Shown here piece after piece: positions 1,088 through 34,664 of a stretch of DNA of 64,000 nucleotides. The notes under the pieces were generated by a model, which had not been told where the DNA came from, did not search any database, and saw only the letters and a program-made list of their open reading frames with translations. Position numbers and translations under genes: made by a program. Position 1 is the first letter of the stretch. Every line of letters begins with the position of its first letter. Origin of the DNA: Salegentibacter echinorum (GTDB lineage: Bacteria > Bacteroidota > Bacteroidia > Flavobacteriales > Flavobacteriaceae); contig NZ_FQVT01000004.1 of the NCBI RefSeq assembly GCF_900129445.1, positions 310,001 through 374,000 of the forward strand, written 5' to 3'.

Positions 1088-2458
1088 TTAACCCAGGTAT
1101 TTCTTAAAATATCTTCTGGCTTCTTTCATCACTTTTGGCGCGAGAATCAATGTGGCAATCATTGTAGGGATAGCCATTAGGGCAAAAAAACCGTCAATGA
1201 GGTTAATCATTGCGCTCAAAGAAGTGGTCGCGCCCAATAAAATACTTACAATATAAAAGTAGTTATAATAATGTTTATTTTCGGCTCCCGCGAGGTAGGA
1301 GAGACATTTGGTACCGTAGTATGAAAAAGAAAACAGCGAAGAAATACTAAAAGCGGCAATACACAGCAATAGCAGGTAATCGCCCACGTAAGGAATAGAA
1401 TCCTCGAACGCGGCAGCGGTTAAACTCACCCCGTTAACATCTGTAGTTTGCCAAATCCCGGTAACCAGAATACAAAGCGCGGTTAAGGTACAAACCACCA
1501 GGGTATCTATGGCAGGTCCCAACATGGCTACCAGTCCTTCTCTAATTGGTTCTGAAGTTTTACTGGCGCCGTGTGCCATAGTCGCAGTTCCAATTCCGGC
1601 CTCGTTAGAGAAAGCTCCCCGGCGTACGCCAAGAATAATTAAGCCGCCCAGAACTCCGCCCAGCATAGGTTCGCCTTTATAATTTTCGGCCGCAAACGCA
1701 TCGGTAAAGATCATAGAGAAATACTGGGGCACTACATCAAAATTAACCACTAAAATAATTAATACTGAAATAAAGTAAAGCACCACCATTGCCGGTACTA
1801 ATCGGGAAACGGTTTGGCTAATCCGTTTTAATCCGCCTAAAATCACTACAGCCGTGAGTATCACCAGGATAATGCCAATGATAAGGTTTGTGGTAAATCC
1901 CGTAGGAACATTATTGGGCTCTAACAAAATAAAATTAATGGCCTGGGTAAGTTGGTTTACATTAAAAACGGGCAAGGCCCCAATTAAACCGGCGACACTA
2001 AAAAAGATGGCCATAAACTTCCATTTTTTTCCCAGTCCTTCTTCTATAAAATACATCACCCCGCCCTGAATGTTTCCCTGTGTATCTTTCCCCCGGTACA
2101 TCACGGCAAGGCTATTGGTGAAAAATTTGGTAGCCATTCCTACAATGGCGCTTATCCAAAGCCAAAAGATGGCACCGGGCCCGCCAAGGGCGATAGCTAC
2201 GGCTACGCCGGCAATGTTCCCCATACCCACGGTAGAGGAGAGGGCAGTAGAGAGCGCTTGAAAATGGTTTATTTCCCCGGGATCGTTCGGGTTATTGTAT
2301 TTCCCCCTTAGCAGGTCCAGCGAATGTCCCAGGTATCTAAACGGAAGAAATTTTGATAAAATAAGTAAGTAAAATCCGCCTCCTATGAGTAAAATTACCA
2401 AAGGAAGACCCCAAACCGCCGATGCGAATTGGGAGATAAGTTCGTCTAATGTATCCAT
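1088..2458 (-). CDS. Alanine/glycine:cation symporter (AGCS family)
   Basis: Inner-membrane sodium-coupled amino-acid (alanine or glycine) carrier. Seen: about ten hydrophobic segments and AGCS signatures such as STVGMGNIAGVAVAIALGGP near residue 75 and the GVRRGAFSNEAGIGTA stretch near residue 280. The length of 456 residues is normal. I start at ATG 2458 (MDTLDELI); a TTG nine bases further upstream would add three residues, and Bacteroidota ribosome-binding sites do not decide between them. The gene is convergent with the exopolyphosphatase. Its upstream side runs directly into the repeat array, so its promoter must lie between 2460 and about 2550. Exact substrate is inferred from the family. 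Confidence 0.9.
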   Translation of the reverse strand: MDTLDELISQFASAVWGLPLVILLIGGGFYLLILSKFLPFRYLGHSLDLLRGKYNNPNDPGEINHFQALSTALSSTVGMGNIAGVAVAIALGGPGAIFWLWISAIVGMATKFFTNSLAVMYRGKDTQGNIQGGVMYFIEEGLGKKWKFMAIFFSVAGLIGALPVFNVNQLTQAINFILLEPNNVPTGFTTNLIIGIILVILTAVVILGGLKRISQTVSRLVPAMVVLYFISVLIILVVNFDVVPQYFSMIFTDAFAAENYKGEPMLGGVLGGLIILGVRRGAFSNEAGIGTATMAHGASKTSEPIREGLVAMLGPAIDTLVVCTLTALCILVTGIWQTTDVNGVSLTAAAFEDSIPYVGDYLLLLCIAAFSISSLFSFSYYGTKCLSYLAGAENKHYYNYFYIVSILLGATTSLSAMINLIDGFFALMAIPTMIATLILAPKVMKEARRYFKKYLG

Positions 2459-2548
2459 AAACCACAATTACGCGGAAAATATATGAAAATATGCGGTAAT
2501 TTACACTCCGTAAGTCTGTCTTTATTTTTAACAGGAGCTTTTTTTAGA

Positions 2549-4247
2549 ATTCCCACGAAAGAAAAAATCTCTTCAATCAGGTTTATGAAAGATTCTTCGC
2601 TTCGCAAGCTGCGCTCTGAATGACAGGGGAGCTGTCGTTGTACCGCTTTGTCATTGAACCGCTTTGTCATTCCGAGACTTTTGTCATTCCGACGAAGGAG
2701 GAATCTCTTCACTCAGGCTTGTGGAAGATTCTTCGCTCCGCAGGCTGCGCTCTGAATGACAGGGTGCTGTTAAGGCTTTGTCATTCCGAGACTTTGTCAT
2801 TCCGACGAAGGAGGAATCTCTTCACTCAGGCTTGTGGAAGATTCTTCGTTCCGCAAGCTCCACTCTGAATGACAAGAGTGCTGTCGTTGTACCGTTTTGT
2901 CATTGTACGACTTTGTCATTCCGACGAAGGAGGAATCTCTTCAAGCCTCACTACTATGAATCAAATCTCATCATTTAAAAACCGCCATTCAGGATTGAAC
3001 GCTGATATCAGTTTATTTTTTTTCTTTCGTGACCAGCCTTTAATAATCTTTTCTTTCCGAATTGCTGTTTCCGCATTAAAAAAATGTTCGTGATAAATAA
3101 GAAAAAAGCATTTGTATTTTGTAGTAAAAGCTTTGGAGAAGGCTTCTGGATTTCTATGTTCAAACAAGCGTCTCTTTAAATTGTTAGTTACACCGGTATA
3201 TAAAACGGTTTTATACCTATTAGTTAAGATATAAACATAGTAATTATGGGTTCCCAGAGTTTTCATTGTTCTAATTTAAATAAAAATAAGAAACTGAGAA
3301 GCACGATGAAGATTCTTCGCTTCGCAAGCTGCGCTCTGAATGACAGGGTGCTGTTATTGTAAGGCTTTGTCATTCCGAGACTTTGTCATTCCGACGAAGG
3401 AGGAATCTCTTCACTCAGGCTTGTGGAAGATTCTTCGCTCCGCAAGCTGCGCTCTGAATGACAAGGGTACTGTCGTTGTACCGCTTTGTCATTGTAAGAC
3501 TTTGTCATTCCGACGAAGGAGGAATCTTTCACGTTAGGCTTATGGAAGATTCTTCGCTCCGCAAGCTCCACTCTGAATGACAGGGTGCTGCCGTTGTAAC
3601 ACTTGGTCATTCCGAGACTTTGTCATTCCAACGAAGGAGGAATCTTTTCAATCTGGCTTGTGGTAGGTTCTTCGCTCCGCAGGCTGCGCTAAGAATGACA
3701 AGCGTATTGTCATTTTAACGCTCTGTCATTCCGACGAAGAAGGAATCTCTTCACTCAGGCTTGTGGAAGATTCTTCGCTCCGCAAGCTGCGCTCTGAATG
3801 ACAGGGTGCTGTCGTTGTACCGCTTTGTCATTGTAAGGCTTTGTCATTCCGACGAAGGAGGAATCTTTCACGTTAGGCTTATGGAAGATTCTTCGCTCAG
3901 CAAGCTGCGCTCTGAATGACAAGGGTACTGTCATTGCAACGCTTTGTCATTCCGACGAAGGAAGAATCTCTTCAATCAGGCTTGTGGAAGATTCTTCGCT
4001 TCGCAAGCTGCGCTCTGAATGACAGGGGTACTGTCGTTGTACCGCTTTGTCATTGTAAGACTTTGTCATTCCGACGAAGGAGGAATCTTTTCAATCAGGC
4101 TTGTGGAAGATTCTTCGTTCCGCAAGCTCCACTCTGAATGACAAGCGTACTGTCATTGTAAGACTTTGTCATTCTGATTAAAAGAGGGATCTCACCAATC
4201 TGGCTTATTGAAGATTCTTCGTTCCGCAAGCTCTACTCTGAATGACA
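2549..4247 (+). repeat. Array of 12 imperfect inverted-repeat units, one holding a gene
   Basis: Twelve units, all in the same orientation, begin TGTCATTC and end GAATGACA. Full units are 80-81 bp. Unit spans: 2549-2625 (left end degraded), 2682-2761, 2795-2874, 2914-3345 (carries the GIY-YIG gene), 3384-3463, 3503-3582, 3621-3700, 3724-3803, 3842-3921, 3945-4024, 4064-4143, 4167-4247. The left arm (GACGAAGGAGGAATC) and right arm (GATTCTTCGCTCCGCAAGC) are imperfect complements around a loop such as ctcaggcttgtgg. Spacers are 23, 38-39 or 56 bp with one of 33, which fits a 23-bp core plus zero, one or two copies of a 16-bp block carrying TTTGTCATT. Apparent reading frames across it are repeat translations only. 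Confidence 0.95.
2961..3266 (-). CDS. GIY-YIG nuclease family protein inside a repeat unit
   Basis: Small single-domain GIY-YIG nuclease of 101 residues. Seen: YVYIL at 10-14 (GIY position), YTGVTNNLKRR at 23-33 (YIG plus the conserved arginine), the metal-binding glutamate in IRKEKIIKGW near residue 72, and a C-terminal NPEWRFL. The catalytic set looks complete, so the protein is probably active; the substrate is unknown. Members of this group are usually annotated as endonucleases by homology only. The gene occupies the loop of repeat unit four: the left arm ends at 2943 and the right arm resumes at about 3308, leaving only 17 and 41 bp of flank. Its final codons (gat gag att tga) resemble the gaagagatt of the neighbouring arm. 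Role in moving or copying the repeats is inference. Confidence 0.88.
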   Translation of the reverse strand: MKTLGTHNYYVYILTNRYKTVLYTGVTNNLKRRLFEHRNPEAFSKAFTTKYKCFFLIYHEHFFNAETAIRKEKIIKGWSRKKKNKLISAFNPEWRFLNDEI

Positions 4248-4292
4248 AAGTCTTATCTTTTATAAAACCAACCCGTTATTGTTTTCCGGAGC

Positions 4293-5882
4293 TTAAAATT
4301 CTGAAGTAAAATGGAATTTAATGGATGGATATTTATCGCGGGTCATTTGCAAAGAGAATTGCGAATCGGCGAGAAATACCAGCTGTCCTTTTTTGTCTTT
4401 GGCGAGAAATTTAGATTTTAATCTTTTAAAATCTTTAAACTCTTCGCTTTTTTCATCTTCAGCTTCAATCCAGGTCGCTTTGTGAACATTTAGGTTTTCG
4501 TAGGTACATTTGGCACCATATTCGTGTTCCAATCTATATTGAATTACCTCAAATTGTAGCGCACCCACGGTTCCAATAATTTTTCTGCCGTTAAGTTCTA
4601 ACGTGAAAAGCTGCGCAACCCCTTCATCCATCAACTGGTCTATTCCTTTTGCCAGTTGTTTAGATTTCATAGGATCGGCGTTGTTAATATACCTAAAATG
4701 TTCCGGGGAGAAACTTGGAATTCCGCGGTAATTTAAAGCTTCTCCTTCTGTGAGTGTATCTCCAATTTTAAAGTTTCCGGTATCGTGCAATCCTACAATA
4801 TCACCGGGATATGAAACATCTACAATCTCTTTCTTTTCAGCAAAAAATGCGTTGGGACTGGCAAACTTTAGTTTTTTATCGTTTCTCACGTGCAGGTAAG
4901 GCTTATTCCTTTCAAAAGTACCCGAAACAATTTTCACAAAAGCGAGTCGGTCTCGGTGCCGGGGATCCATATTGGCGTGAATCTTAAACACAAAACCTGT
5001 GAATTTATCCTCTTCAGGCTTAACGATGCGTTCTTCACTTTCTTTGGGACGCGGGGTAGGGGCGATGCTTATAAAACAATCTAACAACTCCCGAACTCCA
5101 AAATTATTTAAGGCCGAACCAAAAAACACCGGTTGCAGCTGTCCTCTTAGATAAGCGTCTTTGTCGAATTCAGGATAAACACCCTGCGCCAGCTCCAGTT
5201 CTTCCCTTAGCTCGTTGGCGGCCTCATCACCAATTAAATCGTCCAGCTCGCTAGAAGTAAGATCTGAAATTTCTATGGTGTCTTCAATATCTTTCCTGGG
5301 ATCACCGGTAAACAGGTTTACATTCTTTTCCCAAATATTATAAATTCCCTTAAAATCATAGCCCATCCCAATGGGGTAGCTCAAAGGGGTAACGGTAAGG
5401 TTTAATTTTTGTTCAATTTCATCAAGCAACTCAAAAGCATCTTTCCCTTCACGATCCATCTTATTAATAAAAACGATCATTGGGATATTTCGCATTCTAC
5501 AAACCTCCACGAGTTTTTCGGTTTGCTCTTCCACTCCCTTGGCAACGTCTATCACCACAATCACACTATCTACCGCGGTAAGGGTTCTAAAAGTATCTTC
5601 AGCAAAATCCTTATGCCCGGGAGTATCGAGAATGTTGATCTTTATATCCTTGTATTCAAAGCCTAAGACCGAAGTTGCTACAGATATCCCCCTTTGGCGT
5701 TCAATTTCCATAAAATCACTGGTTGCGCCTTTTTTAATTTTATTGGATTTTACCGCTCCCGCTTCCTGTATCGCGCCCCCAAATAGCAAAAGCTTTTCGG
5801 TGAGGGTGGTTTTACCGGCATCGGGGTGAGAAATAATCCCAAAAGTTCTTCTTCTGTTTAATTCTTTCTGAAAACTCTTCAT
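4293..5882 (-). CDS. prfC: Peptide chain release factor 3
   Basis: Translational GTPase that removes RF1/RF2 from the ribosome after peptide release. Seen: P-loop HPDAGKTT at 19-26, switch II DTPGH at 86-90, NKMD at 140-143, and the RF3-specific tail (domain III with [14 protein letters not shown] and the conserved end KFHFTSEF). At 529 residues it equals the length of the Escherichia coli protein. The start ATG at 5882 gives the family's usual [23 protein letters not shown]. It stands alone: the repeat array is downstream and a 340-bp gap upstream. The last repeat unit ends 46 bp beyond its stop codon, so transcripts probably run into that hairpin. Confidence 0.97.
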
Positions 5883-20120: not shown

Positions 20121-20152
20121 AGAGAGAAGATTCTTCCTACGTCGGAATGACA
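20121..20152 (-). repeat. Half-copy of the array repeat, inverted
   Basis: GAAGATTCTTCCTACGTCGG followed by AATGACA is the left arm of the 2.5-4.2 kb unit on the minus strand; no right arm follows. Confidence 0.75.
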
Positions 20153-24826: not shown

Positions 24827-24926
24827 TGTCATTCCGACGTAAGAGGAATCTTTTCTTTTAGAATAAAGATTCTTCACTCCGCAAGCTTAGCTTGTCTTGA
24901 GCGAAGTCGAAAGGTTCTGAATGACA
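24827..24926 (+). repeat. Isolated copy of the array repeat with a 20-bp insertion
   Basis: TGTCATTCCGACG at 24827 to GAATGACA at 24926. The unit is 100 bp because an extra TTGTCTTGAGCGAAGTCG-type block lies in the right arm. The 3' end of the broken toxin gene is 20 bp away. Confidence 0.85.
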
Positions 24927-34556: not shown

Positions 34557-34664
34557 CTCATTCCAAGGTAGGAGGGATCTCAGTAAAAGGAGAGATTCTT
34601 CGTTCCGCAAGCTCCACTCTGAATGACATTCGTACTGTCATTCCGACGAAGGAGGAATCTCCTG
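34557..34664 (+). repeat. Array repeat copy plus an extra left arm
   Basis: A degenerate unit ends GAATGACA at 34628. After an 7-bp gap (TTCGTAC) a second left arm runs TGTCATTCCGACGAAGGAGG from 34636 and breaks off at about 34664, four bases before the palindromic repeat. Confidence 0.8.

Follow-up and report, generated by a model that had tools for sequence, protein, structure and literature searches.

A small GIY-YIG nuclease gene between inverted GTC-tagged hairpins, a candidate REPtron, in Salegentibacter echinorum and distant bacteria

Ssn, a GIY-YIG family studied in Neisseria, reportedly cuts single-stranded DNA at a sequence that occurs hundreds of times, and its homologs are reported to have sequences of their own. 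CGTC-tagged REPs have been described from five phyla, mainly as pairs with the tags outside; each has an unpaired CGTC, TGTC or CCTC tag at the hairpin end, a stem of 8-9 bp, a loop of 4-5 and a CCA tail (PMC3733652). Carriers named in that paper belong to the Bacteroidetes and Alphaproteobacteria, and S. meliloti, A. lipoferum and N. aromaticivorans are among them. As of 2013 a dedicated transposase was apparently lacking, CGTC REPtrons had perhaps vanished early, and the tyrosine transposase genes of many CGTC-positive species were not flanked by CGTC REPs (PMC3733652). The word GIY is absent from that paper, which names no enzyme for CGTC REPs. A title-level search, mostly outside subscription journals and bioRxiv, found no publication linking GIY-YIG genes with REPs.

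The window, the whole stretch of 64,000 nucleotides analyzed here, contains a hairpin array at approximately 2548-4246. It has 12 units, each with the order GTC-hairpin-spacer-hairpin-GAC: ten empty units, one composite unit that holds a gene, and the first unit, whose left arm is decayed. The tag at the arms of the window's units is TGTC, and tags face outward in all ten empty units, which measure 78 bases from GTC to GAC in nine cases and 79 in one. From the translations, we read the neighbors of the array as a symporter-like gene on one side and a release-factor-3-like gene on the other. The features are as follows.

2548-4246, no strand: array of 12 inverted hairpin pairs, left arm of the first unit decayed
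2683-2760, no strand: empty unit
2796-2873, no strand: empty unit
2914-3345, no strand: composite unit of left arm, GIY-YIG gene and right arm, starting TGTCATTC and ending GAATGACA (the second copy, L003, has the same ends)
2915-2943, plus strand: composite left arm, with GTC tag, 5-bp stem ATTCC/GGAAT, 9-base loop and CTCTTCA
2961-3266, minus strand: GIY-YIG nuclease gene, 101 aa (ORF, PF01541 match, conserved residues)
3308-3344, minus strand: composite right arm, reading GTCATTCAGAGCG...GAATCTTC on that strand
3385-3462, no strand: empty unit
3504-3581, no strand: empty unit
3622-3699, no strand: empty unit
3725-3802, no strand: empty unit (single-stranded DNA folding z -2.3)
3843-3920, no strand: empty unit
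3946-4023, no strand: empty unit (single-stranded DNA folding z -2.7)
4065-4142, no strand: empty unit (single-stranded DNA folding z -2.3)
4168-4246, no strand: last empty unit of the array

We found that the gene lies inside the fourth unit. The composite has its GTC at 2915, preceded by a T at 2914, and its left arm has its last base at 2943. The right arm begins with GAAGATTC at 3308 and runs through GAATGAC to 3344, followed by an A at 3345. The 364 bases between the arms replace the spacer and hold a single ORF. The initial annotation had described a GIY-YIG gene nested in unit four, with arms and ends like those of the empty units, and both this description and its coordinates for the composite (2914 to 3345) proved correct. 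It had also noted that the last codons of the gene, GATGAGATT, resemble the arm sequence GAAGAGATT; eight of nine letters do match, which we judge to be compatible with chance. Single copies of the left-arm type occur elsewhere in the window, at 20128-20151 (minus strand), 24828-24851 (plus) and 34637-34660 (plus).

The 101-aa protein belongs to the GIY-YIG superfamily. It matches PF01541 with 52 bits (cut-off 22.6) over residues 8-83 and matches no NCBIfam family. The residues expected of such an enzyme are in place, as annotated: Y12, Y23, G25, R33, H37 and E72, which we take to be catalytic, were unchanged across the 10 homologs aligned. By sequence, the nearest solved structures are UPF0213 proteins (1zg2, 1ywl), with a weak match to SLX1 as well. 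No relative was found in a phage collection at E 1e-6, and none was confirmed in viral contigs searched with the window protein. The protein does not fit the I-TevI type of homing endonuclease, which has an extra DNA-binding region and a home in an intron or conserved gene: its domain spans residues 8-83 of 101, and Rfam had no match, and so no known intron, in 2400-4400 of the window.

The composite is a genuine unit, more than a product of chance or accident. The window's genome has nine GIY-YIG matches, and one of them (L003) is in a second full composite, in a different array on a different contig. The two genes share 89% protein identity and 87% of bases, with dN 0.053 and dS 0.752 (dN/dS approximately 0.07), and have therefore been under purifying selection. 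The two composites align without a break between the outer GTC/GAC tags, and the alignment collapses beyond the tags. Another small GIY-YIG subfamily, represented by L002/L037 (contig C27 of the window's genome), L035 and L036, has no GTC hairpins and lies beside tRNA genes: tRNA-Asp at L002/L037 and two tRNA-Val genes each at L035 and L036.

We found that relatives of the gene are flanked by outward-facing hairpins far more often than controls. A search with the window protein found a homolog in 11 of the 15 genomes of the genus, and most of the flanks viewed contain inverted arms whose sequence, judged by eye, differs by clade. Remoter relatives were collected on protein similarity alone: in one search the best 80 of 559 were kept, and 60 further regions were fetched from among the matches listed in another. 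Of 217 unique genes, 198 passed filters on flanks and length. The strict motif consisted of GTC, a 5-bp stem beginning with A, a loop of 3-35 and then C, with tags outward; it was fixed after flanks had been read, and A1 too was chosen after flanks had been viewed. Strict outward hairpins stood on both sides of 82 of the 198 genes, compared with 3/268 control ORFs and 0/3960 shuffles, and on at least one side of 134, compared with 63/268 and 60/3960. The control ORFs lie next to the focal genes and have repeats in common with them, which makes the comparison conservative. A variant with a 4-bp stem gave 85/198 genes and 1/1980 shuffles on both sides, and an inverted-repeat score of at least 20 in 250-base flanks was reached by 80/136 genes, 18/218 other ORFs and 20/2720 shuffles. 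Two sets fetched after the motif was fixed (L149-L208 and L239-L255) were held out. Among the 64 held-out loci, 20 had hairpins on both sides, 32 on any side and 40 a score of at least 20. The corresponding numbers in a plasmid collection were 10, 13 and 15 of 17 (17 of 32 records, some closely related to one another). One record of that set, L239 (NZ_CP119140.1), is labelled a plasmid but has the size of a chromosome (2.17 Mb) and is probably mislabelled.

The expectation in the initial annotation that such arms would flank homologs is borne out for these 82 genes. It fails for the 64/198 where neither side has a strict outward hairpin; inward hairpins stand on both sides of 24/198 genes, compared with 5/268 control ORFs. 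Both counts weigh against reading the composite as a REPtron, that is, as an enzyme gene between its own repeats. Some clades have longer loops that escape the strict motif, for example at L187 and L208.

The hairpins might have no functional link to the gene: GIY-YIG genes could be passengers in intergenic DNA that is rich in repeats, or RAYT-type transposases could be the owners of the repeats. Nearly a quarter of control ORFs (the 63/268 above) do have an outward hairpin on at least one side, and Y1_Tnp matches occur in 14 of the 15 genomes of the genus. We nevertheless consider this explanation extremely unlikely, given the rarity of both-sided outward hairpins at control ORFs (3/268), their absence from 14 Y1_Tnp loci, the lack of any strict hairpin in the 3.2-kb loci around the window genome's seven other GIY-YIG genes, and the pairing by clade described below. 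RAYT as the mover was rejected on the same loci: in the 14 examined of 15 fetched Y1_Tnp loci, outward hairpins were on both sides in none and on one side in one. A few Y1_Tnp genes may be misplaced, because the longest ORF overlapping each match was used as the gene. At L027 (G008:C1, approximately 2213092-2213698), an apparently interrupted GIY-YIG gene of the GTCATTGCGA type adjoins a Y1_Tnp match.

The arrangement of a gene within a hairpin pair is real, widespread and out of the ordinary, and it recurs across phyla. Record titles of loci with strict hairpins on both sides, many of them MAGs, include Oscillospiraceae, Francisellaceae, Woesebacteria, Roseofilum, Kamptonema, Syntrophaceae, Ignavibacteriales, Melainabacteria, Calditrichota and Rhodospirillales. 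Tandem arrays occur in two other genera at L187 (G027:C15:33555-36875) and L208 (G121:C1:199565-202352), with units of approximately 180 and 108 bases, respectively; in each array two units have near-identical GIY-YIG genes nested in them, which is the anatomy of the window's array in other letters. In records of Shinella, Rhizobium, Neorhizobium, Sphingobium and A. lipoferum the GIY-YIG gene has an outward CGTC hairpin on both sides, at a distance of 7-85 bases, and in Azospirillum lipoferum (L241) the gene and hairpin pairs separate sufB from sufC. In S. meliloti and one Shinella the upstream hairpin is strict and the downstream one altered, and N. aromaticivorans has arms with a G-initial stem beside the gene, which the strict motif misses. 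No inverted arms were found near the GIY-YIG gene of R. tumorigenes or Photobacterium. The homolog in N. gonorrhoeae (37.9% identity over 86%) sits among dRS3-like hairpins; the nearest one downstream faces inward, another point against the REPtron reading.

We found that each clade of genes goes with its own type of hairpin. When mapped on a quickly built tree of 199 proteins (135 with a label), the inner hairpin family required 36 changes, compared with a mean of 76.5 and a minimum of 69 in 500 shuffles. With the 5-base stem as the label there were 48 changes (shuffled mean 81.6). At 57 of 82 genes the closest outward hairpin on one side belonged to the same inner family as that on the other, where 16.3 were expected and the maximum was 29. 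In G003, G010 and G014, genes of different clades each stand by their own hairpin type (some types assigned by eye). This pairing goes beyond what general repeat richness explains. The hairpin itself is under constraint: with a pattern that leaves two stem positions free per side, 137 of the 149 copies listed (of 239 counted) were complementary, using 11 letter pairs, where 25.1 would be expected if the sides were independent.

The enzyme might instead be an Ssn-like host factor for single-stranded DNA or DNA uptake, with the hairpins as its sites; the gene would lie among them to control itself, and something else would spread the hairpins. The activity reported for Ssn in Neisseria would fit such a role, as would the position of the N. 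gonorrhoeae homolog among dRS3-like hairpins, and purifying selection suits a useful gene. A host factor leaves unexplained, however, why the gene lies inside a hairpin pair in so many clades, why two arrays of one genome have common composite ends, and why a genome can have several clades, each with its own type. We regard this alternative as rather unlikely.

Repeat copy number, compared as the initial annotation had suggested, was higher in genomes with the gene for one hairpin type and not significantly so for another. The window type, allowing up to 3 mismatches, has 47 copies in the window's genome, 10 of them in this array; among 14 congeners, two have 3 and 1 copies and 12 have none. 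In 120 genomes of the family, the type d repeat was present in 16/17 genomes with a close type d gene and 21/103 without, and the mean numbers of copies were 9.1 and 0.83, respectively (Fisher p 5.7e-9, kinship ignored). The threshold for a close gene was set afterwards, and cut-offs of 90, 95, 105 and 110 bits all gave p <1e-6. Within the genus the effect was weaker: median type d copies were 111 with the gene and 18 without (p 0.02, kinship ignored, with G005 scored as lacking the gene although its L026 is more distantly related to that clade). Median type c copies were 14 with and 9 without (p 0.25, kinship ignored), no clear increase. Exceptions in type d run both ways. G122 has the gene but lacks the repeat, 31 copies occur in G097 in the absence of a close gene, and G001, G004 and G009, which have no type d gene, hold 84, 82 and 73 copies. 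These exceptions and the type c result count against the REPtron reading. Repeats seem to outlast genes.

We compared one site with and without the gene in the 15 genomes of the genus. Upstream of trpE (trp gene names are from our reading of the sequences), the gene lies between hairpins in five genomes (G003, G005, G007, G013, G014), and a hairpin pair without the gene, some arms decayed, is found in five (G002, G004, G008, G009, G011). Four have one arm (G000, G001, G006, G012) and G010 has none. The initial annotation had named, as evidence that would speak against it, related strains with a normal loop and the gene inserted elsewhere at random; related species do have the gene-free pair at this site, and the site is filled in others. 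The pattern is compatible with gene gain or gene loss. No insertion event or target duplication was seen, a further point against the REPtron reading; at the trpE site a target-site duplication was unreadable. Type c composites L016 and L017 apparently lie between trpG and trpD, and those of five other genomes lie upstream of trpE.

The filled and empty trpE sites, and the replacement of a spacer by the gene in arrays, might also suggest a homing-type parasite that invades existing hairpin pairs as a safe place without spreading them. We find this distinctly unlikely, because the presence of the type d repeat depends on the gene, the window type is nearly confined to one genome, which has its gene, and the protein hardly exceeds its catalytic domain (residues 8-83 of 101).

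Our results are most consistent with reading the composite as a GIY-YIG "REPtron", in which two inverted, GTC-tagged cognate hairpins enclose a small nuclease gene and the nuclease drives their spread; we think this probable, with some reserve. The empty units are best read as non-autonomous relatives, made of the same two hairpins but lacking the gene. The gene lies inside its own repeats, as do many of its relatives in distant bacteria, and the enzyme is therefore probably the missing partner of this common repeat class. In the mechanism we propose, the enzyme would recognize its own hairpin folded in single-stranded DNA, at a replication fork or during DNA uptake, and would cut near the GTC tag. 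Repair of the cut would copy or shift hairpin pairs, gene-bearing or empty, to other sites, and tandem arrays would arise from repeated local copying. Spread would be by a nuclease and not by classical transposition. The initial annotation had proposed a two-part system comparable to REP/RAYT pairs with a different enzyme class. The anatomy, pairing, recurrence and co-occurrence agree with it; cleavage, and the mobilization or maintenance of empty units by the nuclease, we infer.

More tentatively, GIY-YIG clades across many phyla could form a second, independent REPtron class, each clade specific for its hairpin and spreading hairpin pairs and itself by cutting folded single-stranded DNA; this seems to us possible, if a little short of probable. 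If true, CGTC REPs would gain the enzyme reported as absent, and the mode of spread would rely on a hydrolytic nuclease instead of a transposase. A nuclease gene between its own repeats, with types matched across phyla, names a candidate enzyme for each repeat family, testable with one small protein and one oligonucleotide, and would also yield many natural nuclease/hairpin pairs.

The locus resembles REP/RAYT systems in having an enzyme gene between inverted repeats, empty pairs elsewhere and a repeat type matched to the enzyme; it differs in its tag (GTC here, GTAG there) and its enzyme (GIY-YIG here, an HUH/Y1 transposase there) (PMC3733652). The TGTC tag and the tags-outside pairs of the window's units are those of CGTC REPs as that paper describes them, and GIY-YIG genes adjoin such hairpins in S. 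meliloti, A. lipoferum and N. aromaticivorans, three of the species it names. In contrast, the window's left arm has a 5-bp stem, a 9-base loop and no CCA tail; the stem and loop described there are found in the type c relatives, GTC-ATTTCCGC-GAAG-GCGGAAAT. UPF0213 proteins (1zg2, 1ywl) are, like the window's, GIY-YIG proteins of approximately 100 aa. Ssn reportedly resembles our system in its small GIY-YIG protein, in a cognate repeat with hundreds of copies and in homologs that have their own sequences, and the N. gonorrhoeae homolog may be Ssn. If Ssn acts as reported, the activity expected here is known in kind; the additions, barring an earlier description in the work on Ssn, are the nesting in a hairpin pair, the tandem arrays, the connection with CGTC REPs and the pairing clade by clade. 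The arrangement is REPtron-like in its layout and perhaps Ssn-like in its enzyme.
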